Shown here in pieces: positions 33,894 to 62,600 of a stretch of DNA of 64,000 nucleotides. The translations under genes and the position numbers were made by a program. Each line of letters opens with the position of its first letter. Position 1 is the first letter of the stretch. The DNA comes from Saprospirales bacterium (GTDB lineage Bacteria; Bacteroidota; Bacteroidia; Chitinophagales; Saprospiraceae), in assembly GCA_007695145.1 (NCBI GenBank), contig REEI01000041.1:19339-83338 (forward strand), read 5' to 3'. A model generated the notes under the pieces. The model saw nothing but the letters and a program-made list of their open reading frames with translations, made no database searches and was not told where the DNA came from.

Positions 33894-35432
33894 ATGGACC
33901 AAAAAGTTATTATCTATGATTTTGGCTCGCAATACACGCAGTTGATTGGACGACGTGTTCGCGAACTCAACTTCTATTGTGAAATTCATCCCTACAATAA
34001 AAAGCTGGTTATCGATCAACAGGTCAAAGCTGTTATTCTCTCAGGTTCGCCTTTTTCCGTCAGAGAGCACAATGCCCTCTACTTTGATTTGGATCAGGTG
34101 CTTGGAAAAGTGCCGGTGCTCGGAATTTGCTACGGTGCTCAGTTGATTGCACATCAATTGGAGGGACAGGTGGAACGATCCAGCAGTCGGGAATACGGGC
34201 GCGCTATTCTCAATAGCACCCTCTCAGATCGCTTGTTCTCCGGTGTTGAAAATGGATCACAAATCTGGATGTCCCACGGAGATCACATATTAAAACTTCC
34301 CGATGGTTTTGAAACCATTGCAACTACCAAGTCTATACCTGTAGCAGCATTCAGGTCAAAACCTGGGAATTATCCACAGCCTATATACGGCCTTCAATTT
34401 CACCCTGAAGTTACACACACTGTAGACGGAAGCAGAGTATTGGATAATTTTATTGCCAATATTGCTGGAATGGAGCCCAATTGGACTCCCGCATCATTTG
34501 CAGACGAGACTATCAGCGAATTAAAGGAAATGCTTCATGGGGAATCTGTAGTAATGGGTTTGTCAGGTGGAGTTGACTCCTCTGTGGCGGCTACTTTGCT
34601 CCACCGAGCAATAGGAGAACGATTACATTGTATATTTGTGGACAATGGTTTGTTGCGTCTCAGAGAGTTTGAGGAGGTTTTGAGGGTTTACGAGAAATTG
34701 GGCCTCAATGTAAAGGGAGTAGATGCCTCTCATCTCTTTTTAAACCCACTTCAAGGAGTGTCCGATCCGGAAGAGAAGCGGAAGATCATCGGAAAGGTTT
34801 TTATCGATGTTTTTCAGCAAGAAGCAGCCGCTTTAGATAATGTAAGATGGTTGGGCCAGGGTACTATCTATCCGGATGTGATTGAATCGGTCTCCGTTCA
34901 TGGACCCTCCGTGACCATCAAGTCCCATCACAACGTTGGTGGCTTGCCCGAATTGATGGATTTGAAGATTGTTGAGCCGCTCAGGATGTTGTTTAAGGAT
35001 GAAGTAAGGAAAGTAGGGCAAGAGTTGGGATTGCCACCGGAATTGCTGAATAGACATCCCTTTCCGGGACCCGGACTAGCCATTCGAATTCTGGGTGCTG
35101 TGAGTCGTGGAAAGGTTGAAATGTTGCAGAAAGCTGACCATATCTTTATCGATGGACTGAAGAGATTCGGGCTGTACGACGAGGTATGGCAGGCAGGTGC
35201 CATACTTTTGCCGATTCACTCTGTAGGGGTGATGGGAGACGAGCGCACCTATGAACAAGTAGTTGCCTTAAGAGCGGTGACCTCAGTGGATGGAATGACC
35301 GCCCAGTGGGCTGATCTTCCTCACGACTTTCTGGCTGAAATATCGGGAAGCATCATTAATAACGTTAAAGGAATAAACAGAGTAGTTTATGACATCAGCA
35401 GCAAACCGCCTTCTACTATTGAATGGGAGTAG
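33894..35432 (+). CDS. guaA: GMP synthase (glutamine-hydrolysing)
   Basis: [82 protein letters not shown]. Confidence 0.98.
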
Positions 35433-36840
35433 CTTCGTCACTCTGTGTTCGGTTATTTTACTCTCCATTTTTTTGTTTTCCTGTCGCGCACAACGTCCCT
35501 CGCCAGAAGTGAGACCTGATGCCCTGCCTGAAGTTAGTGAAGATGAAAAACCTGTTCTCCTTGACACTATACAATGGGTAGACAAAAGCGGGCAGGATTT
35601 CACTCCTGTGAGTTATCCGGAAGACTCTCCCTATAGGGAGCGGATTCCCACAGAGCTTCCGACACCTGTATTGAAGGATAGATATGTGATCACAGTGGTT
35701 CTGTCCATGGATGAATGGCCTAAAGAAACCATTTGGGAGGACCTGTTGGATGAGGAAATGGATGAAGAGGAGAAAGAAGAAATATTGGAACTGATGCCCA
35801 GATTGAACGAAAGAGCCCTCGCCTTTCTGAATGGGTTTGAGTTTGCCTTTCGAAAGGAATATTCCGAACAGGTCCACTTTACCATAGAGGTAGTGGCCAT
35901 TGGAGAAAATAGTAACGATCAGAAAATTAGGGAGGTCTTTTCCGGTCTCAAGCATCAACCAGACCTAATTATCGGTGGCGAGAATCGCACAGAGTTGGAG
36001 AGCCTTGCCAGAGTAGCCGCCTCTATGGATGCTGTTTTGATCAACCCCTGGTTCCCCGGAAACTTTAATGTCCCGGGCTTTTCAAGAGTGGTTAGCCTGC
36101 AGCCTCCTTTGAGAGCACATTTTGATGCATTGTTGAGGCACCTTCACAGTATGCAGGCGGATGACCGTTTTTATGTGGTTTACTCCCCCAGAGAAGAAAC
36201 CAGAGTGAAGGAGTTCAGAAATTTGTTCCATAAAGAGTTTCCAGACAGGGTTTTTGGAGAAATTTTTTTCAGGGATGATGTTGAAATTTTAGAGTTTGAA
36301 TTCGATGAATTTTTTGAGGAAGAATCAAGAACTTTTTTCTTTCTTCCGATGACCAGAAATCACCCCTTTATCTATCCTATATTGAGAACATTAGATTTAA
36401 AAATACCCAAAGAAAAATTTGAAGTTTTAGGCCTTACACTGTGGGATAGAGATGTGCATATTGAACTGCACTCAAAACTGGATGTGATCAATACTTCTAT
36501 GAATCTTCCAGTGGATGGAGATACTATGCTACATGAATTCAACTCACTGTTCTTCAATAAAATGGGGTATATTGGGTCCGCTGAAGAATACGAGGCCTAT
36601 GCAATAGGAGATTTTGTGCGGAGGGCACTTATTTTATATGGCACGGACTTCCCACTGTACCTTCCATTTGCCCGATTTTATTCTGGAAGTTTTCGATTTA
36701 ATTTTGGCCAAAATATTGGGATCGAAACACCAGTTGAATCTTTTGGAAAAATAGATCCAAACCTTCAAAATAATGGCCTTTTTATTTTGAGATTTGATAA
36801 CGGAAAATTCAAAGATATTGAATCATTAAATTCAAGATAA
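35389..36840 (+). CDS. Lipoprotein with periplasmic-binding-protein type 1-like (amino-acid ABC substrate-binding-like) fold
   Basis: Lipobox [42 protein letters not shown]...; overlaps the guaA 3' end by 44 nt in another frame, so the true start may be slightly downstream. Confidence 0.75.
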
Positions 36841-39574: not shown

Positions 39575-41116
39575 ATGTCAGAACATAAGGAACGACTGGA
39601 AAAAATGAGAGCGGAGGCACTTCTCGGTGGAGGTGCCAACCGCATTGAGAAACAACACGCCAAAGGCAAATTGACCGCTCGCGAGCGAATTGAGTTGCTA
39701 TTGGATAAGGGAAGCTTTCAGGAAATTGGTATGTTTGTCATGCACCGGAGCACGGATTTTGGGATGGAGAATCAAAGGGTTCCCGGCGATGGAGTAGTTA
39801 CCGGCTACGGTACAGTCAATGGTCGACTCACATACGTTTTCTCTCAGGATTTTACGGTATTTGGAGGATCGCTTTCCGAGACTCATGCAGAGAAAATATG
39901 CAAGATAATGGATATGGCCATGGCCAATGGAGCCCCCTTGATCGGATTGAATGACAGCGGTGGAGCCAGAATCCAGGAGGGGGTCAATTCACTGGGTGGT
40001 TATGCCGATATTTTTTACAGAAATGTTTTGGCAAGTGGGGTAGTACCGCAGATTTCTGCCATCATGGGGCCTTGTGCCGGCGGGGCGGTTTATTCGCCCG
40101 CGATGACGGATTTTGTGGTCATGGTTCAGAAAACTTCCTATATGTTTGTGACGGGTCCCAATGTGGTCAAGACGGTGACCAATGAGGAGGTAAGTGCTGA
40201 AGAACTCGGAGGAGCATCTACTCACAGCACTCGCTCCGGGGTAAATCAATTGGTAGCCGTAAACGATGTAGACTGTATCGCTAAGATCAGGCAATTACTT
40301 TCCTATTTGCCGCAAAATAACAATGAAAAGCCTCCAATCATTGATTATATCTTTGGAGATGAATCCAGACCTGCATTGGATACAATCATTCCGGAAAGCT
40401 CCAATCAGCCCTACGATATGAAGGAGGTGATTCAGGAACTTGCAGACGAGGACTCTTTTTTTGAGATACAGAAGGACTTTGCCGACAATATAGTAGTGGG
40501 ATTCTTGAGGATGGCCGGTAGGAGTCTTGGAGTCATTGCCAATCAGCCATATTCCCTCGCGGGTGTATTGGATGTCAACAGCAGTAAAAAAGCTGCTCGC
40601 TTTGTAAGATTTTGCGATGCCTTTAATATTCCGATGCTGGTTCTCGTGGATGTACCAGGGTTTCTGCCAGGAACAGACCAGGAGTGGAATGGGATTATTT
40701 CTAATGGCGCTAAATTGTTGTACGCCTTCAGCGAAGCTACAGTCCCTAGTGTCACAGTCATTACCCGCAAAGCCTATGGAGGTGCATACGATGTGATGAA
40801 TTCCAAACACATCGGGGCTGACTTTAACTTTGCATGGCCCACAGCTGAAATTGCAGTAATGGGCGCAAAAGGTGCCTCTGAGATTATATTCCGAAAGGAA
40901 ATTGGGAATTCAGAAGATCCGGAACAAAAATTGAGGGAGAAAGAATTGGAATATGCTGAAAAATTTGCACACCCATATCGCGCAGCAGAAAGGGGCTTCA
41001 TTGATGAAGTCATTAATCCCTCAGAAACCCGAAAAAGGCTGATAGCAGCCTTTGACTCTCTTGAGAACAAAAAGGTATGGCGTCCCGGAAAAAAGCACGG
41101 AAATATTCCCCTTTGA
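39575..41116 (+). CDS. Acyl-CoA carboxylase beta subunit (propionyl/methylmalonyl-CoA carboxyltransferase type)
   Basis: [119 protein letters not shown]. Confidence 0.97.
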
Positions 41117-41643: not shown

Positions 41644-44600
41644 ATGATTGCCAACATTTACTCGAGAATTAACCGCACCGCCGGATTTGTTACCCTCACT
41701 TGTTTGAGTACGCTCTTCTTTTTGAGTTTGGGAATGAACCAGGTTGAAGCCCAATGTAATACCACACCAGGTGGTTCTGTAACTGTAGATGCCAATGCTT
41801 CCGGCGTTGGATTTTTAAATGCAGCACAGTTGACCGCCAATGGCTGGACTTTAGATGGAGGATTTTTTTGTGGTACCCTCCGCTATTTTGATGGCCCTGC
41901 TCCCGGAGGTGTATTGCTTGGAACGGAATTAATAGGAGTTGGTTCGGGCCTGGCCAGGTCTTGCGGTACTTTCACTATTTGGGTAGAGCAAGCATCTGGT
42001 CCAGCTGGGTTTAACGCGGGAAACAGAGAGCCGGTCACTTTCACGGTCACTGATCCTGTACTAGATCTTCCAGCAGTAGGAGCCTTTGACATTTCCTACG
42101 ACTGCGATGTCAATCCAGGCATTGTCACCACCTATTTATCCAGTATTCAGCTGGATATTGCTGCCGCTTCTTCGAGCAACTGCAATGATATCGATGCGGT
42201 TTGGATAGTGGGATCAGCGGATACTGTATCAAACAGTTGTGTTGGCAATACCAGAGAAGTAATCATTCAGCACCGCTACGAGGTGACCAATAACCATGGA
42301 GTCTCAGAAGATTACTTTGTAAATATAACATATGTTGATAACGAGGCTCCTGAATGGGATGATCCTACAACAGGAGTTTTACCCGGGAACAATGGAGCTA
42401 CATTCGATCCCGGCATCAATAGATTGGTTGTAACTTTGGACTGCAATGATCCTGACTTCGCAGCTAACTTAACAGCCTGGCAGGCATGGCAGCCTTCTGC
42501 AACAGATAATTGTAATCAAAATACTGTGTCAGTTTCTGTATTCAATACGGATGTAGTCAATCCCGGTTGCCCTATCTACGAAAGACAAGTTACCAGATTT
42601 GATGCCTCAGATGGTTGTGTTACAACCACTGCTGGCGAGCGATTTCGATTGTGGCTGAATTTAGTTGACGATCAAGCTCCGGTTATAACTTCTGCTCCAG
42701 ATACAGTAGATGTTTTTACAGCTCCTCCCGGATGGCCAAATTGCCAATATGTTTTCACCGATGAGTTGGATATCACTGCAACCGATTGCAGGACTTTCAC
42801 CTCAGATTGGTCAGTATCAATTGCTACCACCGGAAATATTGTAGACAATGGCTCAGGAACTGGTTTGAGCGCCAATCCCACTTTAGAGGTGGGCGAGTAC
42901 GAAATAACTTACCTAATTGACGATGGTTGCAATCAAAACGATACATCTATATATATACGTGTGATAAATAATAATGGATTGGATGTGACTTGTCCTGCAA
43001 ATCAAGGACCCATTCCGTTTTTATCCAACGGATGCGGAAATACCGCTGTTTGGAACAGACCAGAGGTGACTGGATTTTGTACAGGAAATTACAGTGATTA
43101 TTTTGTAGGTACTACTATAGTAAATTTGGCAAATGGAGACAGTTCAAATGTAGTGGTTAGTCCGATTGATCCCGCTGATACATTGGGCGTAAGTGCCAAT
43201 GTTACAGAAGGAGAATGGGAAGTGGTGTACTACTTTGAGGATAATTTAGGTGATTCGTATACCTGTTCATTTACGATAACTGTGGAAGACGACAGGGCTG
43301 CTGAGTTTACAAGTTGTAATACGCCACCTGATATTGCTGCTTGCGATTCAACCAGAGTGCAGGATTTGGCGCCACAATTGAGATGTCCGGCTTCAGTTGA
43401 CTCTGTAGTACAGTATCCACCTGTAGACATGTATTTGGTTGATGTGCCAGGACTTGTAGTTGCAGATGGAGAAACTTTTGAAGTTACAATTATTTCTTAC
43501 AGTTTATTCAGGTCGGATACTTGTGTAAAAGTAGTTACTTTGAATGAAACGCTCAACGACAGCCCAACAAGAAATGTGGACAGCCTTCCGGCTATTAATC
43601 CAAATACTTTGCTGGCTGCTGGTTGTGGAGCGATAAATATACCAAGACCCACTGCGACTAGTTGTAGTGGAGAAACGATTTATGGAGTTGCAGGCCCTGG
43701 AGGAATTGATTTGTCTGATACCACCAGATGGGTTATCACTGGTGAGTTTAATCTAGCCAACCTGATTTGGACTTACACAGACGGAAACGGTTCTTCTACG
43801 CAGGAACAGGAGATTGAGATTACTTCCGACGAACGCGCCCCTCTTGTAGTATGCCCCAACGATGTTGTAGTAAGTACAGATGCAAACGTTTGTGAGAGGA
43901 CTAATGTACCTGGGATAAATTTAACATATGTGTCGCCCGGTCTGCCCTATACTGAAGGCAACCTTTTATCCCCGGGCCAATATACCGACGATTGTGACCC
44001 TTCACCGGAAGTTTCATATGAAATAAACGGTGTTGGTGGATTTACTCCAGGCAATGATGCTGGAGTAGGAACTTTTGACCTCGGTGTAAATACAGTAACC
44101 TATCAGGTGGAAGATGACAATGGGAATTCCAGTTCATGTACAGTTGATGTAACTGTTGAGGACAATGAACCACCCACCTTTGATTGCCCAACAAGTCAAA
44201 CATTATTTACATCTGATTTGGATTTATTTACGGGAGATTGTTCAATTGAATTTAATGATATGTTTGACCCCACAAATATACAGGACAACTGCGATCCCGA
44301 CCCAACAGTTAGTTGGGCCACACCCGGATTTTTAAATCCGCTTGGACTTACTATGAGTCCATCTTCAGGGAGTACTCTTGATGGGGTAGAGGCAGATATT
44401 TCTCCCAACTTCTTAGGATTTGGTCTGGGTATCGGTCAGGTCACTGTTCAATGGTCTGTTACCGATAATGCCGGGAACAATTCGACCTGTAATGTGACCT
44501 ATGTCATTATTGATGATGAGGATCCCGAAATAGACTGCCCAACTGACATCACGGTTAGTTACATTGCTGATGGTGGTGGAGTTGAGGTTTGTTCATATAC

Positions 44601-47600
44601 AGCATCAGGTGGTGAATTTGATTTTACCTCTGTTACTGACAATTGCTCTGCAAATACTCCTACCTATATTATTACAGGAGCTACCAACACAGGCGGTACT
44701 GGTTCGATTGATGGAGTAGTACTAAATATAGGTGATAACAATGTTACCTGGTCTGTTAGCGACCCTCAGGGTAATACCGATGACTGCTCTTTCACTGTAA
44801 CGGTGGAGGACGATCAGGCACCTCTTGTTGATTTTACAACTGCTCAAGAATGCGGTGATACCATTACAGTGGTTTCCACTTCTGTGGAATGTAATCCACC
44901 CATAAGTTGGGAGCAACCCATATTTGATTTGAGTTTATTCGAATGCAATCTGGTGACTGCAACCAGAACCATTACTGGTGCCGGTGTCAATGGACCCGCT
45001 CCTGCATACGATGTAAATAATGATATCCTTGCTTATGTATCTGCAGGTTTCAATCTCGGAGCCACAGAAATCGTTTACTTCTTTGCTGATGCAGCAGGAA
45101 ACGATACCACTTGCACCATCACCGTAATCGCGGAGGACAATACCAATCCGCAATTAGTGGCCTGTGCAGGATCTATCGATCTCAATGGTATCTGTGATAA
45201 TATACCTATTGGCGATCTAAGAGCCAATGCGGCCTTTACTGACAATTGTATCAGTTTTACCGTTTTCCAGAGCCCCTCACCAACTACTACCAGGTTCGAT
45301 GCCAATGGAGGTGTATCTCTAAATGATGGAGACGCCATAACGGTAAGGGTTTGGGCAGAGGATGCCTCAGGGAATCCAAGTGATACCTGCTTCCTTACGG
45401 TTACTTTCTTTGCCAATGACAATCCTATTCCTAATGTCAGTCCACTTCCAATACTTAATTTGGATAACGATCTTGATATTGGATGTGGTTCTGTAGAGCT
45501 CGCTGCTCCTACAGCTACCAATTGCAATGGAGACGTAATCCTTGGCGTGCCTTCAGGTGGAGGAGCCCTGACAGACGTCAATGGAGATGGTACTCTTTGG
45601 TTGATTGAGAACCCAACCCCTGTAACCATTACATGGACTTATGATAATGCGGGCAATATTGTTAGCCAGAATCAAACCATTCAGTTTGAGAATAACGATA
45701 GAGACCCAAGAGTGGTCTGTTTTCCAAATCAAACATTCTCAGTTCTTTCCGGTTGCACCTTCAATCCTGAATCCGCTTCATCGGGTGTATTGGATTTTAC
45801 GTATGTGAGTCCAATGATTCCTTATAGCTCTTTCTCACTGAACCCTGGCGAGTATACGGATATTTGTGATATTGACCCTGTTGTTAGTTGGGAAGTTACC
45901 GGCGCTACATTTGGCTCAGGTACCAATAGCAACCCGGGTAACTTTGATTACAATGTCGGACTACATACAGTTTCAGTAACTGTTGCTGATGATCAAGGTC
46001 AGGATGCAACATGTTCTTTTGAGCTAACTGTCCAGGACAATATTTCACCAGCTATAAGTGTCCCAAGTACAACTGTAACCCTCTTTTCAAATGATGGTGG
46101 TTGGACAGGCTGTACCTATATATTTGACGATTCTTTTGATCTTGAGATATGGGGATCGGTGAGCGACAATTGCGGTATTGCGAGTGTGGAGTGGAGCATT
46201 CCAGGATTTGTCCCTGTTTTTCCGTTTATTAACCCAATTGCAGTAACACCGAGCAGTTCATCCGGAGTTACAACGCTTAGTGGTTTGGAAATGGATGCAT
46301 CAGCAACCAGTAGCGGATTTTTCAATGGTTCGGGAACTGCTGTAATCAGATGGACTGTAACCGATGTAAACGGAAATACTTCAACTCAGGATGTGAGATT
46401 TAACTTTATAGACAATACCCCTCCTGATTTGGTTTGTCCTGTTGATACCACCGTTGATTATTCTACCGGAGGCGGTACGAGTACAGTTTGTACCTACACC
46501 GTATCGGGAGGAATTTTTGATGCCACGGTGGATGACAATTGCACTGTCACTAGTTTTAGTTATGCAATTACCGGTGCAACCTTTTCTGTCGGCACAGGCA
46601 GTGTAGATGGAGAAAGCCTCAATATAGGCAACAATACCATCACCTGGGCTGCAACCGATGGGGCATTAAATGCTTCAACTTGTTCATTCAATGTTGAGGT
46701 TGTAGATGATCTGGCTCCGGAAATTGACTTTATTACCTCCCAGGAATGTGGGGATACCATAAGGATTTATTCCACGCCCACATCGTGCAACCCAAGCGTC
46801 GGATGGGAACAACCCATCCTCGATCAAAGTCTTTTTGATTGTTCGAATATAGTTTCAGGAATCAGGACCCTTACTAATAATATAGGGAATCCAGATCCAT
46901 ATGTTTTTAATAATCCTGGATCCTATAATGGATCCTCTGATTTTGCTCTTGGTTTTGGATCTATTTTATATGAATTTGAGGATGCTGCCGGTAACATTAC
47001 GACCTGTGAATTGACGGTGGAAGTACTTGATACGATTCCTCCAGTTTTGAATTCCTGTGATGTTACTGCTACGGTGAATTCCATTTGCGACAATGTAAAT
47101 CTTCCTTCATTTACAGGGAATGCCGCCATTGCGGATAATTGCACCGCACTAAGCTTCTTCCAGAGTCCTGCTGCGGATACCGATTTGATTGATGCGAATG
47201 GAGGTACTTCACTAACTGATGGTGACCAAATAACAGTTCTAGTTTGGGCAACGGACAATTCCGGGAATGTAAGTGATACATGCTCCATTACAGTTACCTT
47301 TAATGCTGATTCTATTCCCGTTCCGGCTGTTTCATCTCTTCCTGGTATTAATCCAGGCAATACTTTAGAGGCAGGATGCGGGCCACTCGCAATTGATGCT
47401 CCCATAGCAACAACATGCAATGGAGACACCATTTATGCAACAACTGGTGGAGCTGGTATTACTGATTTGGGTACAACCCCTCCTTCTTATGAGTTTAACA
47501 ATTTTAATGGTAATGTTATCTGGGGATATGATGATGGTTTTGGCAATGTCACTTCTCAGAATCAAAATATACAGGTAACTTCCGATACTGCAGCACCTGC

Positions 47601-50600
47601 CGTTATATGTCCTACGGATATTTTAGTAAGTACTGATCCAAACGAATGTACGGCCATACCCAATAATACTACAGGTGTAAATCTGGCGATGACTTTTGTG
47701 GACCCAAGTGGAGATTTTCCTCCCTACCCTCCGACTTCTCTTACAACCGGTGAGTACACCGACAATTGTGACTCTAACCCAACGGTTGAATTCGAATTTT
47801 CCGGAGCGACCGTATTTGGCCCTGCAACCATAGTTGGGAATGATCCGGGCACGCAGGTATTCAATGATGGGACTACTACAGTTACAGTGACGGTAACTGA
47901 TGCAAGCAGTAATAGTGCGAGTTGCAGCTATACAGTAACGGTTGAAGACAATCAAGCACCGTTATTAACTTGCCCTGGTGATCCTATTACAGTTGTGGCC
48001 TTTAACGATCCTGGGGAATGTTTCGCTACAGTGAACAATATTGGAGTGGACGTGGTCGAGAATTGCGCCATAGACACCATCTATTATGAAATATTTTTCT
48101 TAACATCTACTGTTAGCGGGCCTAATGATGCCAGTGGAACGCAGTTTCCGGTTGGTGGATTTTTGAATTATCCTGTCGTCTACACTGCCATAGATACCTC
48201 TGGAAACATTGGTACTTGCACGTTTTTTGTTCAGGTTTTTGACAATGAGCCTCCGGCCATCAATCCTATCATTTGCGATACCACATTCACCAATGATACA
48301 GATTTGGGCTTGTGTACCTACACCCAATCGTTTAACTATGGTTTTGTCGTAACCGATAATTGTACCGATCTTGCTAACCTCACTTTCGAAACAGAGTTTG
48401 TCAACCCTGATGGCAGTGTTTCAATGGTTAATGGTCAAACATTTAACTACGATTTTGAGGTAGGTACAACCGTTGCTACTTTGACTGCAACTGACCTTGC
48501 CGGAAATAGCTCTACTTGTGAAAGCACTTTTGTGGTTGAGGACAACGAGCTTCCAATCATCAACTGCAACCCCAATGATACCATTGCGGGCCTTGCATGC
48601 GAACTCGGAGCTCAGGAATTCGCTTTGGATTTCTCAGACAATTGCGGTGTGGTCCTTGATTCCTTTGCCAGCTTTAATATAGACAACAATGGAGTTCTTT
48701 TGACCGCAGGTGGAGAAATAAAAATCAATGGTATAACCGGTGAACTTTTCTTTACAGCTAATATTTTCGCCGGATTGACGACTATTGAATACACCGTTTT
48801 AGATGTAAATGGAAATGAATCACTCCCATGTGAATTCACGGTGCTTCTGTTGGAGAATTCCAATACAACTGTTGTTTGTCAGCCCACTCCATCGGTGAAT
48901 TTAAATTCAAATGGTGAAGCAAACATACCTTTAAATTTAGTATACTCCAGCCATGATGGCTTCTGTCCCAATCCAACCATTGTTCACAGTCCTACTTCTG
49001 TAGACTGTACCGATGGTGATGATGTATTGGTTACTGTTGTTGTTTCTGACAATGCCGGTAATATTGACAGCTGCCAGACTACTGTTGCAATCAATGACCT
49101 CATCCTGCCAACTGCGGCATGTGTTGACACCTTTACGGCTATCCTGGATTCCAATGGAGAGGTCACCATCACAACTAGTGATATAGATAACGGAAGCGAT
49201 GACAATACTTCGCCTCTTTGTGCCCTAGACCTCTCATTAGATATTGTCAACTTCGATTGTGGTAATGTAGGACCAAATACGGTTGTGCTTACGGTTGAGG
49301 ATGTTTATGAAAATGTGAGCACTTGCTCTGCAGTTGTAAATGTGGTTGATAATGAGGCTCCAAGTATAGTGTGTCCTTCTGATTTGAATGTCGATACAGA
49401 TGCAGGTATTTGTACTCACAATGTAGCAAGCCTCGAACCGGTTTCTGTTAGTGACAACTGTGCCATAGATTCCGTTTCATACGCGATCTCAGGAGCTACC
49501 TCAGGCTCAGGCTTGTCTCCACTTGCGAATGTCGATTTCAATCTTGGCAATTCAACGGTTGTTTTCACCGCCACTGATGTAAGCGGTAACTCTACAACTT
49601 GTTCTGTTTTGGTTGTAGTAACTGACAATGAAGCACCTGTTGCAAATACCGGTATTTGTAATAATGTGGATACCGTAAGTACCGATGCCGGCTTGTGCTC
49701 AGCGGCTATCGATTACGACTTCGTATCCGATGGTTGGTTCTCTGACAATTGCACTTCAAATGAGAACCTTTTCTACTCTGGAGAGATCACCAATCCGGAT
49801 ATGACCACTACTCCTTTCACTGGAGGAGATCCTACACTAACTTTCCAGTTGGGAACTTCTACCCTTACTGTATTTGCTGAAGACGCTGCTGGAAATATCA
49901 GTCTTGCGTGTGTGAATACCATTGAAGTTGAGGACAACGAGCTCCCGGATCCGGGCTGTCCTGCAAATATAGACTTTGGAACTGCAGTTGATTGTGATGC
50001 CACTATCGAGTTGTTCTTTAACCCAACTGATAATTGCGGCCTCGAAGTTGACTCATTCCAATTGACTTTTGACAATTTCGCACAGCAGCCAAATATTCAG
50101 AATTCCGGCTGGAGAAATGGAGTTTTGGGTGGTAATCCTGTATTAGTTGAATTTGGAACCGGTACAACGGATGTTACCTTCTGGGTGGAGGATGTAAATG
50201 GCAATTCCAATTCCTGCACTTTCCAGGTAGAGGTGACAACTGGTAATGACGACCTAAGTATTACTTGTTTTACTGGCAGAACGGTCGAATTAGGAAGTGA
50301 TGGAACTCATACTTTCAGTGGTGCAGATGATTTATTTGGAAATATTATCGGCGCTTGTCCTCCAACACAGACCTTCTTTACTCCTGCATTTGTTGATTGT
50401 CAGGATGGTGATTCTGTAGAGGTTGAAATTATCTATGTAGATAATGCCGGTCAATCGGACACTTGTACCACTACAGTTGCCATTGAGGACAATATTCCTC
50501 CTGTTCCCAGCTGTGTTACTGCTTTGACAGTAGAGTTGGATTCTACAGGTAATCAGTCTATTACAACGGCTGACATTGATGATGGAAGTAATGACAATAC

Positions 50601-53600
50601 TTTCCCAACTTGCCCCTTAGACCTCAGCTTGAATGTAGATCAATTCAGTTGTGCAGACCTTGGACAGGTTGATGTTTGGTTGACTGTTGTAGACGTGTAT
50701 GATAATGTGGACTCTTGTTTAGTTGTAGTTGATGTGGTTGACAATCTCAATCCACAGATATTCTGCCCTGATGATGTAGCTGTTAGTACTGACCTGGGTG
50801 ATTGTACTGCAGTCGTGACCGACATCGCTCCGGATTCAACCTGGGAAAATTGTACCATTGATTCAATCACTTATGTGATTACAGGAGTTACCTCAGGAAG
50901 TGGAAATGATGATGCAAGTGGTTCTGTGTTTGAACTGGGTGCAAGCCTGGTTACTTATACTATTTATGACAATTCGCAAAATTCCACAACTTGTTCTTTC
51001 AGCGTAACTGTTGATGACAATGAGCCTCCTATGATTACTTGTGCAACTCAGGATACTACAGTTGGTACTTCTGAGGACGGTATTATTGGCGATTGTGTAT
51101 TCTCGATCAACGGTGCTAATGCTGCAGGATTTTCTGCATCTGCCACCGATAATTGTGCAATGCCACCAGTAGTAACTCATAATATCTCAGGTCTTGCATC
51201 CAATCAAAGCCTTGTTGGTTTTGATGCACCTCTTGGAACAACTACAATTGTCTGGACTGCTGATGATGGCAATGGCAATACTGCTTCCTGTAGTTTTGTG
51301 CTTACTGTAGAAGATGATGAGGATCCATTTGCCGGATGTCCGGGTAATATTTCAATTACCAATGCAAGCGGCTGTGATGCAACCAGACTTATTTCTGTCA
51401 CCCCAACTGATAATTGTGGTTTGGTGTGGTCTTCGTTTACTGTTGACTTCGATAATGCCGGTACTGGTTTGGTAAATGACCTTGTTCCGGCCTGGCAACA
51501 AGCTCAAGCCAACGGAGAATTATTAGTGGAGTTTGCAATTGGTGAAACTGTTGTTACATACTTTATTGAAGATGAGTCACAGAACTCGCACGAATGTAGC
51601 TTTATAGTAACTGTAACTGAAGGTGATGATACAGGCACTCTCGTATGTCAGGATGAAATTACAGTTGAATTGAATGCAGATGGATATTACGCGTTAAGAA
51701 CAAATGACCTCATAATTGAGCACAATGGATTTTGTTCTCCAATAACTGATATCTTTACTCCTGATACCTTGTTCTGTACAGATGGAGATCAAATAATTGT
51801 AGCTATTGAGTCTTTTGACAATGGTGGAAATAGTGATAATTGTACCGTAATTGTAAATATAGTTGACAATATCAACCCAACAGCAATTTGTCTTCAGTCC
51901 CTAAACGTTTATTTGGATGTTGACGGGCTGGCAGTTTTGGATTCTAACGCCCTTGATGATGGAAGTTTTGACAACACCACCGTTTCAAATCCATCATGTG
52001 ATTTAGACTTCGAAATAAGTCAGAGTGGTTTTGATTGCTCTGATTTGGGTACTTCCACCATTTTCCAGGTAGTAACCGATGTCTACGATAATGTTGATAC
52101 TTGTTATACCAGTGTTACAGTATTGGATACTCTCGCACCTGTTGTTACTTGCCCAATGGATGTTATTGTTGACAATGATGCCGGTGAGTGTTCTGCTGAG
52201 GTGAGTGGTATTGAGCCCCTCGATGTATCTGATAACTGTACTGTTGTGGATACTTCTTTCACCTTTAGTGGTGATTTAATCGGGAGTGGATCTGGAGATG
52301 CCAGTGGAACCGTTTTCCCTGTTGGTACAACTACGGTTGTATATACCATAAGTGATGAATCCAACAATACTTCTAGCTGTGACTTTACCGTAACTGTGAA
52401 TGATGTTGAGGCTCCAGCGATTACCTGTGTTTTAACACCGATCAATCTCGGTACTTCCGAAGATGGTAACCCAGGGGATTGTGTTTATACTGCATCTAAC
52501 GCAGAGTTCGATGCCACGGCTACCGATAACTGTCAATTGGATCAAGTATTCAATAATCTGAATAATACAGCATCACTTGATGGTGAGGACTTTGGATTAG
52601 GCACTCATACCGTAAGATGGTATGCTACTGATATTTACGGTAATATTGACTCATGTGATATTGAGATCACTGTAGTTGACGATGAATTGCCAAATCCGGG
52701 ATGTCCAGGCAATCAATTGTTCTCTAATGCCAGCGGATGTGGTGATGTATATCAAATTGGAATCAATGCATTTGACAATTGTCAATTGGATACTTCCTCT
52801 TTTGCCATTACCTTCAATCGCAGCGATGCTAGCATCGCTAATCCATTGGATAACCATGTTGCAAATGGAAGTGTATTGTTAAACCTTCCTGTTGGTGTTA
52901 CTCAGGTTACCTATTATATAGAAGATGTAAATAACAACGCGAATTCCTGTAGTTTTACCATCGGAGTTACCGTTGGAGATCCAAGTGCAGGAGTTACGCT
53001 GACTTGTCAAAATCCTATCGAGGTTTATCTGGACCAAAATGGTGAGTATGAATTTATCGAGGATGACCTCCTGAATACTATCAATGGTTTCTGTGAGCCT
53101 AGAGTTACTACCATTACCCCTGCAGTCGTTGATTGCGAGGATAGACCTAATCTTACCGTTCAATTGAAAGTTGAAGATTTTGGAGGCAGGATTGATTCAT
53201 GTACCACTTCGGTTACCATTTTGGATACCATTCCTCCAGTAGCCCTATGTCAGGATACGACTGTATATCTCGATGCTCAAGGTTTCGTTAGCATTGATTC
53301 AAGCTTCATCAATGATGGAAGTTTTGACAATGCCGACCTCTGTGGTCTGACTATGGAGCTAAGTGAAAGCAATTTCGATTGTGAAGATGTTGGTGCCAAT
53401 ACTGTCGCACTGACTGTGACGGATGTATTTAGCAATTCAACGACTTGTGAAGCTACCGTAACTGTGGTAGATAGCATTCCACCGACCATTGAGTGCGTTG
53501 CCAACCAGGCTCAGTTCAATGATCCAGGAGAGTGCGGCGCAGTTGTAGATAACCTCGCATTGGTTGTGGCTGACGATAATTGTGCTATTGATACCATTGA

Positions 53601-56600
53601 ATTTACAGTAAGTGGAGATACTCAAGCAGGCGGTGGTGATGATGCAAGTGGAGTTTTCTTTAATGTGGGTACTTCAACGGTTACTTATACTGTGACAGAT
53701 GTAAATAATAATGTTTCTACCTGTAGCTTTGACGTTGTCATTACTGATAATGAAGCTCCTCAGTTTGAAGGACCTTTTGCAAATGGCGATACACTCGTCT
53801 TAACTTCAGGTGACAATGTTTTCTACGAGTGTTTCTACGAGGTGATAAGTACCGAATTTGATCCTGTAGTTACCGACAACTGTGCAGTTGCTGCTGTTTG
53901 GAATGATCTAAACAATGCTTCCAGTCTCGCTGGAGTACAGTTTGCTCCGGGTACTCACGATGTTCGCTGGTACGCTGAAGATATTTATGGAAATATCGAC
54001 TCGATTGATATAGAAATTACTGTAGAAGACGATGAAGCTCCGATAGTTACTTGTGATGCAAATTTTGATCTCAATGCCAACTCTGGATGCGATGCATCTC
54101 GTCAGTTTAATATTGGTTTTGAAGACAATTGTGCAATTGATGCTTCTACATTTGAATACTTTACCGATAATCCTGATGTGAACGAAGTATCTGTTAATAA
54201 TTTAACTGAAAATGGGGTAGAGGTAACTCTTGAATTCCCTGTTGGAACTACCATCGTAGGTTGGGTTATTCAGGATATTTATGGTAACGCCGATACTTGC
54301 TATACTACTGTAAATGTGTTCACTACCAATGGGCCTATTGCTAACTGCGTGGACAACTTTACTGCTATCCTTGACGAAAATGGAGAATATGCTCCAAGAC
54401 CTCAGGATTTGCTTACCAACTATACACCAGGTCAGAGCAGTTGTGGAATTGATACCGTTATGTTCTCACCAGATGTATTGGATTGTTCAAACAGACCTGT
54501 TACTACTGTTGAAGTGACTGTCATGGATGTAGCAGGCTTGACAGATGTTTGTTCTGTTCCTGTAACTATTACAGATACCATTCCTCCTGTCGCTCTATGC
54601 CGGGATACCACAGTTTATTTGGATGCTCAGGGATTTGTCAGCATTGATTCCAGCTACATCAACAATGGTAGCTCTGACAATGCCGATCTTTGTGGTCTGA
54701 CAATGGATTTGAGCAGAATGACATTTGACTGCGATGATATTGAAAACAATCCGATTTCGGTTACCTTGACGGTTACTGATGTGTTTGGTAATTCTTCCGA
54801 ATGCGTGGGTAATGTTGTGGTATTAGATACTGTTCCTCCTGTTCCTGTTTGTCCTGCTAGTGTTGTTCAGGACAATGATATGGGTGAGTGTGGTGCTGTA
54901 GTCAATAACATTGACCTGACTGCCGATGACAATTGTGCAGTAGATTTCTGGAGTTACTCTCTTACCGGGGCTACTCAGGGAAGCGGCTCAGACAACGCCA
55001 GTGGCGAATTCTTTGTAGCCGGTACTACCACAGTGACCTATACTGTAAACGACGTAAATAACAATACTGCCAGCTGTAGCTTCGATGTTACCATCAACGA
55101 TACTGAAAATCCTGTTATCGTTTGTAGCAGTGATACTTTGGTGACTACTTCAGGCGATGGTTTGCCGGATTACGATTGTCTCTATGTAACTCAAGGAGCT
55201 GAATTTGATCCTGTGAGCATTACTGATAATTGTATGGTTGACAGTTGGTCTAATAGTGAAAACGGTCAGGCATCTCTAGCGGGTGTTGCTTTCGAAGCAG
55301 GTACTCATACGGTAACCTGGACGGTGCTTGATACCGCAGGTAATTCCAGCACTTGCGATATTGTAATTGAAGTATTAGATGATCAGGCTCCTGTTTTGAG
55401 CAATTGTCCTTCAGATGTTACGATACAATCAGCAGGTAATTGTGGAACCAACTACAGCTGGATAGTTCCAGACAGTATCGATAATTGTGAAATAGAATCG
55501 CTTACCGTTTCATCAACAAATCGTCCCGGATTCTGGATCAATACCGTTATTCCCGGATTCCACGATGCGGACTTCCCCGTTGGAAGTACTACCATTCAAT
55601 ATATGTTGACCGATACTACCGGTAATGCCGATAGCTGCTCATTTGTAGTTACGGTTACCGGAGCGCCTAACACTCAACAAGGACCTGAAATTACTTGCCA
55701 GAGTGCTCCATACATTGCACACTTGAATACAGATGGTGAGTTTGTGATAGACACCTCTACTTTTGGTGAATATGGAGTTACCATAGTTTCCGGTGAGTGT
55801 CCCATATCTAATAAGTGGGTCGGTCAGCAGGTCTTGACCTGTGCTGATATCCCTCAGGTTCAGGTTACTTTCTTTGTCAATGATGGTGCGGGCAATATTG
55901 ATTCTTGTCAGAAAACCTTTACCATTGTCGACACCATCGCTCCAGTGGCTGCATGCATGGACGCCACTGTCTATTTGGATGCTACCGGCTTCAAGATGAT
56001 TGATGAGACTTATATCGATGATAATTCTTCTGACAATGCCGAAGCATGTGGATTGGATTTTGTCCTTTCTCGAACTACTTTCGGTTGCGTAGATGTTGAC
56101 AATCCGGTAACAGTTACCATGACAGTTACTGATATATTTGGGTTGTCTGACTCTTGTACTGCTGTTGTTACAGTTCTGGATTCTATTGCACCTACTGTGA
56201 TGTGTCCTACTGTTCTGAGCAGCTACATTAATGATATGGGCGAATGTGGAGCGGTAATAGATATGCTTGAACTCGTTGCCAATGACGCTTGCGGTATTGC
56301 ATCCGTTACATGGTCAGCCTCCGGAGCTACCAATGCCACCGGAACAGATGATGTAAGTGGAACCTTCTTTGATGTTGGATCTACTGATGTTACCTACACT
56401 GCATCTGATTCTTCAGGCAATAGTTCTACTTGTACATTCACTATTCAGGTAGATGATATTGAAGCGCCAGTTGTACTTTGTCCCCAGCCTCAGACCAGAG
56501 GTACAGGTGACGACAATGAAGGCTTGTACGATTGCGCTTACACTACTCAAGGTGCTGAATTCGATTATACCGATGTGACAGATAACTGTGCGGTGGATAC

Positions 56601-59600
56601 TTTCTACCACAACCAAAGTGGTGCAGCATCCGCTCAGACACTGGATGGATTTGTTTTTGGCCTCGGTACCACTCAAGTAGTGTGGACAGTTATCGATGAA
56701 GCAGGCTTGTCTTCTACCTGTTCGTTTACAGTAAATGTGAATGATAACGAGGCTCCTGACTTCCAGGGTACCTGTCTGCCTGACACTATCATAGCTTCTA
56801 CTCTCACTTCCTGCGATGCATTGTTTGTATGGACTACTCCTGTAGCCATCGACAACTGCCAACTGGTAAGTACTTCTGAAGAAGCGGTTGATCCTTCCGG
56901 TGCTTCTATATTGGTGTTCCCTAATGGATCTACCAACCGTCAGGCAATGTTCCCTGCAGGTACATCCACGGTAACTTATGTGGCTACCGATGCAGCTGGA
57001 AATAGCACAGAGTGCGAATTCGATGTAACGGTTACCAATTCAGGTTCAGGTCCTATTGCGATCTGTCTGTATGCTCCCGATATCTTTCTGGATGCAAACG
57101 GACAAGCAACCATTGAGCCTGAAGATATTAATCCTACTTACGGAAGTCAAGGCAATTGCCCATTGGCAGACGTTAGTGTGAGTCCATCGCTAATTACTTG
57201 CAGTAACCTGGATGAAGTATTGGTGACCCTTACTGTAGTTGATTTTGCTGGTGGTTCTGACCAATGTCAAGTAACGCTGAATGTAATCGATAATATAGAT
57301 CCCACTGCTGTATGTGATGACTTTACAGTTGCTCTTTCCGCTTCGGGAAGTGCTACTGTAAATGCTACGGATATTGACAATGGAAGCTCTGATAATTGTA
57401 ATATTGTTTCAAGAGAATTGAGCACCGGCGGTAATAGCTGGAGCAATAGCCTCAACTTTGCTTGTGGCCAACTTGGACCAAATGTAGTTTACCTCAGAGT
57501 CACTGACCAAAGTGGAAACTCGGCTAGCTGTGATGCTACTGTAGTTGTTGAAGACAATATTGCACCTGTAGTCAACTGTCCTGCTGATGTTACCGTTGGA
57601 ACCAGCTCTATTGGCTCCTTCGATTGTGTTGGAAGCCATACATGGACCATTCCTACACCTTCTGATAATTGTGGTATCAGCAGCTTCACAGAAATGCTAA
57701 CCGGAAGTACAGTAGCAGGACCGGATAATGTAATGGGTCAAGGTGGTACTTCAACTACTCAAACATTTGAGTTAGGTACTACTACTGTAGTTTATTCGGC
57801 TTCTGATGTAGCGGGTAATAATGCCGATTGTTCATTTGATGTCACTGTTGTTGATGACCAGGCTCCCCAAATCACCTGTCCTTCAGATGCTGTTTTTGCA
57901 ACCTCTGAGGATGGTAGTGGTGATTGTAGCTTTACACTCACCGGTACTGATCTCGACGCAACTGCATCTGATAATTGTTCTGGAATAGGTGCTGTTTCTA
58001 ATGACTTCAATTCAGGCTCAAGCCTGGATGGAGCTACCTTCCCTGTAGGTACTACCACTGTTGAGTGGTCTGTATCCGATGCAACCGGCTCAAACTCTTC
58101 AGCATGTACCTTTACTGTTACTGTTGCAGATGATGAGGGTCCGATCTTTGACTATTGTCCTCCATCTGTGACCATACCTACTGTAGGTCCCGGTGCTTGT
58201 AATAACAATTACACCTGGCAGGCTCCAATGGAAGCGGATATTGATGATAACTGCGGATTTGGTGATTTGACTGTGACTGAATCTGTAAGTTCTCCATACG
58301 GAACGATCACCATCATTCCTACCGGTTATGATCCCACAGATCCAACCAAACAGGAGAGAACAGCGCTGTTCCCGATTGGAACCTCTACTGTATTCTATAC
58401 TGCTGTTGATTTGGCAGGCAACGAAACAGTTTGTTCATTTGATGTAACGGTAACTGAATCTACGCCTCCTGTTGCACTTTGCCAGGATGCTACGGTTTAT
58501 CTCGATGCAAGTGGCACCGCTGCTATTACTCCTGATGATGTGGATAACAATAGTTTCGACAATTGTGAGATCGCATCCATGAGTGTAGATCCTTCTACTT
58601 TCGGTTGTAATGATGTTGGGACTGGTGTTAGCGTAACCCTTACTGTTGAAGATTTCTCTGGAAATACTGCAACTTGTACCAGCACTGTTACTGTTTTGGA
58701 TACTATTCCTCCAATGGCCGCATGTCAGGACATTACCGTCGATCTCGATGGAAGTGGACAGGCAGTGGTTGAAGCTGAGGACGTAGACGCCAATGCCGGT
58801 GGAAATTGCTCTGTAGATTCTTACGAAATATCTACCGATGGTGGCAATAGCTTCCTGTCATCTGCACTATTTACTTGTGCCGATCTGGGCGGCCAATCGG
58901 TTGTACTGATGATTACCGATCAGAACGGAAATGAAGCAACTTGTGATGCAACTGTAACTGTTGAGGATGTTACTTCGCCTCAGATCACTTGTCCTAATGG
59001 TGGATCTGTGGTGACTAGCAACAATGGTACAGGAGACTGCACCGGAAGCTTTACATGGACCGTTCCAACACCGACTGATAATTGTGAGGTCACTGTTCTT
59101 GAGGCTCAACTCTCAGGAGCAACCTCCGGAACCATTGACCAACTGGATATTCTGGGACAGACAGTTTCTGCTGATTTCAATGTCGGAACCACAACGGTTG
59201 TTTATTACACCGAAGATCAGTCAGGTAACACTGCAACTTGTGAAGTAACTGTTGTCGTTACCGATGACGAAGCCCCTGCACTCGCAGGACCTACATCATT
59301 AAGTGTAACGACTTCTGAGGATGGACAACCCGGTGATTGCAGATATACAGTTAATGGCAATGAATTTGATCCAACGAGCTTTGGTGATAATTGTAGCCTG
59401 ACAGCTGTGCCGGTTCACAACTATACTGGCGGTGGAGTTATTTCCAACACTACTCTTTCTAATGCAAGATTCCCTGTTGGAACTACCAATGTGGTTTGGT
59501 CACTTACAGATGATGCAGGCTTAACAAGCAGTTATACCTTAACTGTAACAGTTGCCGATGATGAGGCTCCTGTATTCTTGACTTGTCCTTCTGATAGAAC

Positions 59601-62600
59601 CGTAAATTCTTCAGCCTTTAATTGTAACCAAATTGTGGCCTGGAACCTTCCATATGCAATTTCTGATAACTGTGGTGTAGCTTCTGTTACCGAAGAGTTC
59701 AGCGACCCTGCAGTGAATCCAATTCACAATTATAATTTCTTCAATCAAACTGGTTCAACCGGTACTGCTCTGTTCTCTGCAGGTATTACTACTGTGACCT
59801 ATACTGCTACAGACGTCAACGGATTGAGCTCAGTTTGTGAATTTACGGTAACCGTACTCGATAATCAGGCTCCGGTGGTGACCAATTGTCCTACTAGTGC
59901 TACGATTACTGACATATGCGCAGATACTCCTCTTCCCGACTGGACCGGAACTGTTACGGTTACGGACAATTGTACAGGGAATCAGGAAGTAAGTCAGTAT
60001 CCGGCTGCAGGAACCCTTTTGGGTGATATTGCTGGATTGATCCTCAATGAAGGTCAAACCTTTACCGTAACGGTTACTGCTACCGATCTCAGTCCAAATT
60101 ATCTGTCCGGAAGCTGTAGCTTTGAAGTGACCCTGGTGAATGACGATGTGCCTCAACCGCTTGTACCCGGCCCATTATTGCCAACTACTAACGAAATTGC
60201 CTGTGATGGTAATTCTGCAATAGTTGTTGCTCCTTTGGCCAATATTTCCGGTGGTTGTAATGGACCTTCACAGGTCAGTGCCCAGCTGGTACCCGTTCCA
60301 TCCGGCGTTGTCAACAACGGCAATGGTACTTACACCTTCCCGAATGGCTTTAATGCTATGGTTACCTGGGTTTACACCAACGGTTCAAACGAGGTATCTC
60401 AACTGCAGACTATTGTTGTATCGCCAGACAATAATGCACCTGTTGCTATTTGTCAGACTGCCACTGTTTCCCTGAATGCTATGGGAACCGGTAGCCTTAC
60501 TGCAAGTATGGTTGATGGCGGTAGCTTCGATAGCGAATGTAGCATCGCCTCTAGAAGTGTAAGTCAGACTTCATTTAGCTGTGCAAACCTTGGCACCAAT
60601 ACGGTGACTCTCACAGTTACTGATGAAAATGGTAACAATGCTACTTGTAATGCTACTGTGAATGTTGTCGATAACATCGCTCCTGTTGCTGTTTGTCAAA
60701 ATGCTGTGATCGAATTGCAACCTAATGAAATGGTTACTCTTGATCCGGCAATGATCAACAATGGAAGTTCCGATAACTGTGGTTCTATTTCTCTCGCCGC
60801 AACTCCATCAACTTTTGGTTGTGGTGATACAGGAGTGAATCATGTGATACTTACTGTAACAGATGGTAGTGGAAATACTGCCCAGTGCAGCGCCACTGTA
60901 GTTGTGAATAATAACTTGCCTCCTGCTGTTACTTGTAATGACATCACTGTTCAGTTGAATGGTTCTGGTAGTGCTGCTATTAACCTCGGTATGGTTGCAG
61001 ATATATCAGTGCCTTGTGATGCTAACTTCACTGCTTCTTTGAGCAAAACTAGCTTTAACTGCGGAGATGTAGGCGCCAACACTGTAGTGGTTACTGCCTC
61101 TAACAGCGACAACAATCAGCTTGCTAATTGTACGGCTACCGTAACGGTAGAAGACAATATCGCTCCTGTGATCGTAAGCTGCCCGGTCAACGTCCTGACC
61201 TGTAATGCCGGTGTTGACATTCCTGCGCTTGTTGCTACTGATAACTGTGGAATCGATGACATCACCTATGTACTTTCAGGTGTAACCGAAGGTTCAGGTG
61301 ACGGTTCTGTGGCCATTACTGATGTTAACTTCCTACACGGTGTGACCAATATCAACTACACCGTTACAGATGTTAACGGCAATACTGCTTCTTGTGTGAC
61401 TGTGGTGACTATAGACAATACCTCCGAGCCAACTACTATCTGTATCAATGATCTCAATGTGAATATTGGATCATCTGGTATGATTTCAATTGATGCGGCA
61501 TTCTTCAATGCGAATAGCTTTGATCCCGGATGTCCTGATACGGAATTGTCATACCTGATGTCTGTTAATGGTGGCGATCTTGTCAGTAGTTTTGATTTCG
61601 ATTGCTCTTCTGTTGGTACTAATTCTATTATGCTTCATGCATACGATGGCGCTGGTAACTCAGGTAATTGCCAGACTACTCTGAATGTATTTGATGTTAT
61701 CGCACCTACTGCTGTTTGTAATGCTGGTATTGACGTTTCTCTTGGTACCAATGGTACTGTAGAGATCAATCCTGCAGACCTCGATGGCGGCAGCAGTGAT
61801 AACTGTTTCATTTCGTTCAGCGCGTCTCAAACAGTATTCGATTGTGAGGATATTGGCACCAATAGCGTTACCCTTACCGTGACTGATAGCGGTGGCAATA
61901 CTGCTACTTGTACTACAACAGTTACAGTAGAAGACGATATGCCTCCAGTTGCTATTTGTGACGACCCTGTATTTGTAATTAGCAATCCTAATCACGCTAT
62001 CATACTTGAAGCAGCTGATGTGGACGGTGGAAGCTCTGACAATTGTGGTATTGCTAGCATGAGTGTTACTCCTTCTGTGTTTACCTGCTCAAATGAGGGT
62101 GCCAATCTGGTAGTTCTCACTGTGACTGATAACAATGGCAATGTATCTACTTGTGAAAGTACAGTTACCATTATCTGTCAGGAAGATATCTATGTGGTAA
62201 GTGGTAGAGTTTCTACTGAATATGGATACAACCTGGATCAGGTGGAAGTTACAATGACAGGTTCTAGCAGCCAGTCTATGGTAACAGGTAGCAATGGAAA
62301 CTACACCTTTACTGTTGAGAACGGTAGCGATGTGACCGTAACTCCAACGAGGGATATCGACTATCTGGAAGGTGTTTCAACACTTGACCTCATCTTGATT
62401 CAGCGTCATATTCTTCAGATTGAAGCGCTCGATAGCCCGTACAAGATTATCGCTGCGGATGCTAACAAGGACGACAATCTCAGTGTTGTTGACCTCGTAT
62501 TGTTCCTCAATCTGATCGTTGGAAATATCGACGAACTTCCTGACAATGACTCCTGGAGATTTGTACCTGCTGACTTTGACTTCCCGAATCCCGTGAATCC

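Follow-up and report, generated by a model that had tools for sequence, protein, structure and literature searches.

An old five-module super-repeat, grown by block duplication, in a giant and probably secreted protein of a Saprospirales bacterium

The best-documented cases of repeat proteins that expand block by block are animal giants, among them nebulin and titin. Domain repeats, reported to be far more frequent in eukaryotes than in prokaryotes (PMC1553488), can expand several domains at a time, with seven domains as the duplicated block in nebulin (Bjorklund et al. 2006, PMC1553488), and titin is likewise organized in super-repeats (PMC13031707). In bacteria, arrays of HYR domains are already known, including HycP of Clostridium cellulolyticum, in which 23 HYR modules are combined with a CBM3 (PMC3723904). 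Long extracellular stems have also been described, including that of the adhesin SraP, which is rigid with Ca2+ (PMC4047093), and the grappling-hook protein of ixotrophic predators, a heptamer secreted by the type IX secretion system (T9SS) (PMC11205867). Here we describe a gene for a protein of 7,259 amino acids (aa) in a Saprospirales bacterium (Saprospiraceae, Bacteroidota), the central part of which is an array of beta-sandwich modules repeated in blocks of five. The gene lies in a stretch of 64,000 nucleotides (hereafter the window), positions 19339-83338 of contig REEI01000041.1 (C14 in our numbering), from a 3.7-Mb genome that is 99% complete; contig and window share their end. The array is a clean and very long bacterial case of block-wise growth, in which synonymous sites are saturated and the order of slots is intact.

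The array comprises 43 consecutive modules (47947-59859), beginning with M3-M4-M5 and continuing with eight M1-M2-M3-M4-M5 units, all in phase (Table 1). Full units are 447-472 aa long, and the modules measure 79-84 aa (M1), 82-89 aa (M2), 91-100 aa (M3), 92-103 aa (M4) and 100-111 aa (M5). Cysteine anchors of the M1 slot lie at 48877, 50266, 51646, 53005, 54346, 55696, 57064 and 58480, with spacings of 1389, 1380, 1359, 1341, 1350, 1368 and 1416 nt, and the M2 anchors follow at spacings of 1392, 1377, 1359, 1350, 1356, 1359 and 1410 nt. Residue autocorrelation over residues 2101-6100 peaks at 457, 905, 1368, 1819, 2283 and 2736 aa, and the signal disappears on shuffling. Autocorrelation of module similarity reaches 169, 141, 124, 116 and 108 at lags of 5, 10, 15, 20 and 25 modules, every other lag giving 53-71; in 10,000 random reorderings of the modules the lag-5 value was never reached. 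An earlier note, made by reading the sequence, had described an ordered five-slot cassette repeated in phase in seven to eight copies. Both autocorrelations and the module boundaries agree on such a cassette, the copies proving to be eight full units and an M3-M4-M5; the seven M1 cysteine spacings given there, with all eight anchors, are exact to the base, and its motif strings for M1 to M4 agree with the unit consensus. Its description of M5 as a shorter DNC unit was mistaken, M5 being the longest slot (100-111 aa).

Table 1. Positions in the window of the giant gene, its repeat units and its terminal regions.
Feature	Position	Strand	Basis
Giant, probably secreted protein gene (whole), 7,259 aa	41644..63423	+	single open reading frame (ORF); PF18962, TIGR04183; genomic SprA
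N-terminal signal peptide region, MIANIYSRINRTAGFVTLTCLSTLFFLSLGMNQVEAQ	41644..41754	+	by-eye call on translation
Upstream super-repeat, six-module unit A-F of ~620 aa; two full copies and A-B-C of a third	43291..47946	+	self-BLAST, tree
Unit 0 (M3-M4-M5 only)	47947..48858	+	module boundaries
Unit 1, M1-M2-M3-M4-M5	48859..50247	+	module boundaries, module tree
Unit 2, M1-M2-M3-M4-M5	50248..51627	+	module boundaries, module tree
Unit 3, M1-M2-M3-M4-M5	51628..52986	+	module boundaries, module tree
Unit 4, M1-M2-M3-M4-M5 (modelled, mean pLDDT 90.5)	52987..54327	+	module boundaries, module tree, AlphaFold
Unit 5, M1-M2-M3-M4-M5	54328..55677	+	module boundaries, module tree
Unit 6, M1-M2-M3-M4-M5	55678..57045	+	module boundaries, module tree
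Unit 7, M1-M2-M3-M4-M5	57046..58461	+	module boundaries, module tree
Unit 8; M1 slot (58462-58698) holds an M2-like module	58462..59859	+	module boundaries, best match, slot HMMs
Modules A-B of the ~620-aa upstream unit, directly after the array	59860..60426	+	self-BLAST, tree
Seven single modules, six M2-like	60427..62175	+	slot-HMM scores
C-terminal cassette: CarboxypepD_reg-like, dockerin-like (sub-threshold), cohesin-like, T9SS type A sorting domain	62155..63420	+	

Modules resemble their counterparts in other units more than their neighbors. The best match is a module of the same slot for 42 of the 43 modules, the exception being the first module of unit 8, which departs from the M1 slot and is closest to M2. 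Hidden Markov models (HMMs) built with one unit left out at a time name the correct slot for 41 of 43, missing M4 of unit 1 by 0.5 bit and the same M2-like module of unit 8 by 27 bits. The module tree requires 5 slot-label changes, one above the minimum of 4, where shuffled labels average 26.6 and none of 200 shuffles does as well; its deep split separates an M1+M2 superclade from an M3-M5 superclade (99/97). Neighboring modules clustering by unit, the outcome that the earlier note had named as fatal to its proposal, was examined for units 4 and 7, and a clade of either unit is rejected by the approximately unbiased test (p-AU 8e-5 and 3e-84), also when the three HYR modules are taken alone (p-AU 3e-4 and 2e-4). 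The farther apart two units lie in the array, the less alike they are (Spearman -0.91; not reached in any of 10,000 permutations), which is the graded pattern predicted by serial tandem duplication of blocks; the closest pairs are units 4 and 5, inside the array (49% aa identity), and units 7 and 8 at its C-terminal end (46%). Same-slot clustering and expansion by multi-domain blocks, both anticipated in the earlier note, are thus upheld by the lag-5 periodicity, the slot tree, the rejected unit clades and the decay with distance, and growth by block duplication, not by single domains, is well supported.

The array therefore shows the two marks of multi-domain duplication of the nebulin and titin kind, namely autocorrelation at the block length and same-slot clustering. 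As in nebulin, duplication of several domains appears as an autocorrelation peak, at seven domains there and five here, whereas the giant protein belongs to an unrelated domain family, is bacterial and has saturated synonymous sites. Like titin, it is a giant protein in which different beta-sandwich domains recur in a fixed order as a higher-order repeat; it differs in being an extracellular bacterial protein with no known partner filament, and no homology is claimed.

Fourfold-degenerate sites are 26-45% identical across all 28 unit pairs, against 32% expected from composition, and even units 4 and 5 stand at 30%. The array is old, and its synonymous sites are saturated. Of the self-comparison diagonals expected at about 455 aa and 1.36 kb, the first is present at the protein level; the 1.36-kb diagonal is nearly absent at the DNA level, limited to short stretches among units 4 to 6, because fourfold-degenerate identity between units is near chance. 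Intact slot identity with saturated silent sites implies purifying selection on each slot. The same sites bear on concerted evolution, whereby ongoing gene conversion would keep the units alike in an array that is young or constantly renewed. The highest likeness does lie between neighboring units (49% for units 4 and 5, 46% for units 7 and 8), but recent conversion would leave synonymous identity, and fourfold sites are near chance in 28 of 28 pairs; we regard this explanation as very unlikely. Still less credible is duplication of domains one by one, followed by slot-wise functional convergence under selection. Single-domain expansion with lags of ~80 aa does occur in the C-terminal M2-like run (60427-62175) and in many relatives; for the array it is largely refuted by the rejection of unit clades, by autocorrelation solely at multiples of five and by the graded decay with distance, and the slot differences span the whole module, not a few positions. 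Extra copies could also be an assembly artefact, arising from short-read misassembly or chimerism. The contig stops 577 bp past the gene and congener contigs stop at or inside genes of the locus, so that such genes are evidently hard to assemble. Yet the 21.8-kb frame (41644-63423, + strand) runs uninterrupted with 0 internal stops, and because the units differ at most synonymous sites an assembler could not have collapsed or stuttered the copies, which leaves this account with hardly any plausibility.

The modules have an immunoglobulin/cadherin-like beta-sandwich character and probably all belong to the HYR superfamily. Thirds of the giant protein score 146-259 bits against HYR (PF02494; cut-off 21.7). 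Among the Pfam matches listed, from a scan in which 150 of 258 candidates were scored, HYR overlaps M3 in 9 of 9 cases, M4 in 6 of 9 and M5 in 8 of 9, and overlaps 0 of the 16 M1 and M2 modules. When M1 and M2 modules were scanned singly, 4 of 12 gave an HYR match at E up to 1, the strongest, an M2 (6e-4, 20.5 bits), standing just below the cut-off. The warning that this architecture would escape a generic HYR annotation was therefore partly right: M1 and M2 go uncalled among those matches, and M3 to M5 are called HYR. Modules of the M1/M2 type (e.g. 52987-53469), lying below the HYR cut-off, may merit a family model of their own. M2-like modules are frequent in relatives, with 246 in the surveyed proteins. 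HycP is comparable in its HYR domains (M3-M5 here), its long tandem array and its nature as a large secreted bacterial protein; it contrasts with the giant protein in the five-slot block order, the M1 and M2 modules missed by the HYR model and the T9SS tail of the latter, in which no CBM3 was found. A literature search for HYR together with Saprospiraceae found nothing, and one for HYR together with Bacteroidetes returned no paper on the subject by title.

On either side of the array the giant protein carries a different repeat. In the upstream six-module repeat, residues 603-1200 match residues 1223-1831 by self-BLAST (42% identity, E 5e-134) and also match 1837-2430, and the A-B-C of the third copy runs directly into the M3-M4-M5 of unit 0. 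Modules A and B reappear after unit 8, where residues 6073-6262 match 1796-1981 (37% identity, E 7e-23) and the tree supports the reappearing modules at 100/99 (NA) and 99/92 (NB). With A-B-C before unit 0 and A-B after unit 8, the array sits at a break in the six-module scheme, and we infer that it expanded in place, inside the six-module repeat. The seven-module run that follows looks like ordinary single-domain expansion. There are thus three growth modes within one gene: six-module, five-module and single-domain.

AlphaFold models unit 4 as five beta-sandwiches with a mean predicted local distance difference test score (pLDDT) of 90.5 and a predicted template modelling score (pTM) of 0.56. 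Foldseek places ectodomains of cadherins and protocadherins and an RTX adhesin tandem repeat at the top, all as chains of beta-sandwich domains, and among Saprospiraceae proteins it finds GhpA; the template modelling scores (TM-scores) are mostly 0.2-0.35, which indicate a likeness of chain type, not of whole structure. The unit profile also matches SraP (PDB 4m03) at E 5e-8, and Asp601, Asn602, Asp645 and Asp661 of SraP align with Asp, Asn, Asp and Asp of M3. In the crystal structure of SraP these residues coordinate Ca2+ (PMC4047093). Their counterparts are unevenly distributed along the block. The linker Asp (Asp-x-x-x-Pro) is found at 35 of 35 junctions into M2-M5 and at 0 of 8 M5-M1 junctions (Fisher p 7e-9), and the Asp-Asn pair in 31 of 35 M2-M5 modules against 1 of 8 M1 modules, the one being the M2-like module of unit 8, while the strand Asp is present in all 43 modules (M2-M5 35/35, M1 8/8). 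Side-chain ligands of the type seen in the cadherin-like (CDHL) modules of SraP are therefore in place in M2-M5 and mostly missing from the M1 slot. From these motifs, M2 to M5 are predicted to bind calcium and to be stiffened by it, with a putative joint between M5 and M1. The CDHL region of SraP from Staphylococcus aureus (PDB 4m00, 4m02, 4m03) is thus comparable to the array in the profile match of M3, in the positions of Ca2+ ligands and, as far as stiffening can be predicted here, in being a calcium-stiffened adhesin stem. It differs in that there are 43 modules here against two and that the M1 slot is without most of the site, and SraP is a Gram-positive serine-rich adhesin.

We consider it probable that the array is an old, block-duplicated stalk, likely exported by the T9SS, with calcium-stiffened rod segments and one calcium-free joint per block. 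The whole would be a very long protein, secreted or on the cell surface and exported most likely via the T9SS, with the array as its stalk. Growth would have taken place long ago by repeated tandem duplication of the five-domain block, probably through unequal recombination, after which the copies diverged while each of the five slots held its own identity. The four junctions per block with SraP-type Ca2+ side-chain ligands would be stiff when calcium is present, and the M5-M1 junction, without those ligands, would act as a calcium-independent joint. Such a jointed and regular rod could hold the terminal parts of the protein at a distance from the cell, where they would serve in adhesion or capture. 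SprB-type gliding adhesins of Bacteroidota are likewise very large, repetitive and exported by the T9SS, the last being a predicted point of likeness; no homology to SprB was found, though no search was aimed at it. GhpA of Aureispira (PDB 9flp, 9fly), which we take to be the grappling-hook protein of ixotrophic predators, is also a giant extracellular protein, from the same bacterial family, and its beta-sandwich chain was matched by Foldseek; by sequence, the three pieces compared with the PDB matched no GhpA chain at E 0.1, units 4-8 being compared with the PDB solely through the unit profile at E 0.01.

Several findings weigh against parts of this reading. Deep support in the slot tree is poor for M2 (47/65) and M5 (49/53), and a single M3 clade is mildly rejected (p-AU 0.02), as would be expected if M3 lies nearest to the ancestral HYR module or if there was some exchange between slots. 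A model of M4-M5-M1-M2 does speak for the joint, the pLDDT of the junction block being lowest at M5-M1, with 70 against 89 and 90 at the other two, and the four junctions in the unit model standing at 92-94; one low block of 10 residues is, however, weak evidence. Nor was a ligand-binding domain recognized in the giant protein. The super-repeats of two relatives, L129 (558 aa) and L127 (373 aa), have the linker motif at all junctions, so the joint would be a property of the giant protein and not the reason that such arrays exist. As a general cause of super-repeats the joint is not supported, since L127 and L129 keep the linker at every junction.

That the five-domain period is itself functional, with a joint per block kept by evolution to give a regularly jointed and calcium-switchable chain of rods, is a tentative proposal that we think more likely wrong than right; we know of no description of this design in bacterial adhesins. 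The period could instead serve as a molecular ruler or binding lattice, each block presenting a repeated ligand site and the joint being incidental. Titin offers a comparison, with A-band super-repeats that are set against the periodicity of myosin, and slot identity maintained despite synonymous saturation implies slot-specific selection in the array. There is, however, no known partner filament or ligand, and we judge a ruler or lattice to be the less likely of the two, and unlikely in itself. Periodic loss of the calcium-type junction amounts to a specific mechanical prediction, testable on small recombinant pieces.

Higher-order repeats are common in the giant HYR proteins of the family, of which the five-module array is one instance. 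A quick survey found relatives with three-, four- and six-module arrays; slot labels in relatives come from the models of this window, and only order and lag spectra were used. L129 has a period of ~558 aa in six modules of near-constant length, L127 one of ~373 aa in four modules, and L137 one of 401 aa. Within the same genome the paralogue L068 has a period of 248 aa, and contig C37 encodes a protein (L067) with a period of 236 aa, as does its probable counterpart L099 on contig C45 of the congener G004; this single pair suggests that block length is conserved between orthologues. Searches with the unit profile in 61 near relatives and 298 family genomes recovered the full 448-position cassette from no other protein, in a sample of the family in which the best candidates were scored and rare full-length copies may be missed. 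A few other proteins match four of the five slots (e.g. G135 58-445), and a scan of named genomes gave matches in two weak relatives only, both Saprospiraceae metagenome-assembled genomes. The block-expansion process and bacterial HYR arrays were known already; what this array adds is its length and order as a bacterial example, a calcium-type junction lost at regular intervals, and the variety of block sizes among relatives. The earlier note had not recognized how old the array is, the absence of one calcium-type junction, the ~620-aa super-repeat upstream or the super-repeats of relatives. This bacterial family is well suited to studies of block-wise growth in giant repeat proteins, both of its mechanism and of its causes.

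Export through the T9SS is the most likely route for the giant protein, judging from its C-terminus and its genome. The C-terminal end matches Por_Secre_tail (PF18962; 31.4 bits, cut-off 27) and TIGR04183 (31.2 bits, cut-off 23), which makes it a type A sorting domain, and a genome search aimed at the translocon protein SprA found it encoded (TIGR04189, 2345.6 bits). The ~420-aa C-terminal cassette (62155-63420) occurs 27 times genome-wide, including the copy of the giant gene itself, and its dockerin-like and cohesin-like parts are a noteworthy pairing within a single chain.

The N-terminal 569 aa have no match in 7 congeners, and the opening ~50 bp of the giant gene are also found in G004, in which the contig ends ~50 bp into the orthologue (99% over 71 bp), downstream of the carboxyltransferase gene. 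At the same locus in G005 and G006 there is a different large protein with M1/M2-like modules, which runs off the contig. The loci concerned, L035, L037 and L038, are those downstream of the carboxyltransferase gene (window 39575-41116). Elsewhere in the window (33894-36840), the GMP synthase gene shares 44 bases with the ORF next to it, which encodes 483 aa and has no Pfam match.

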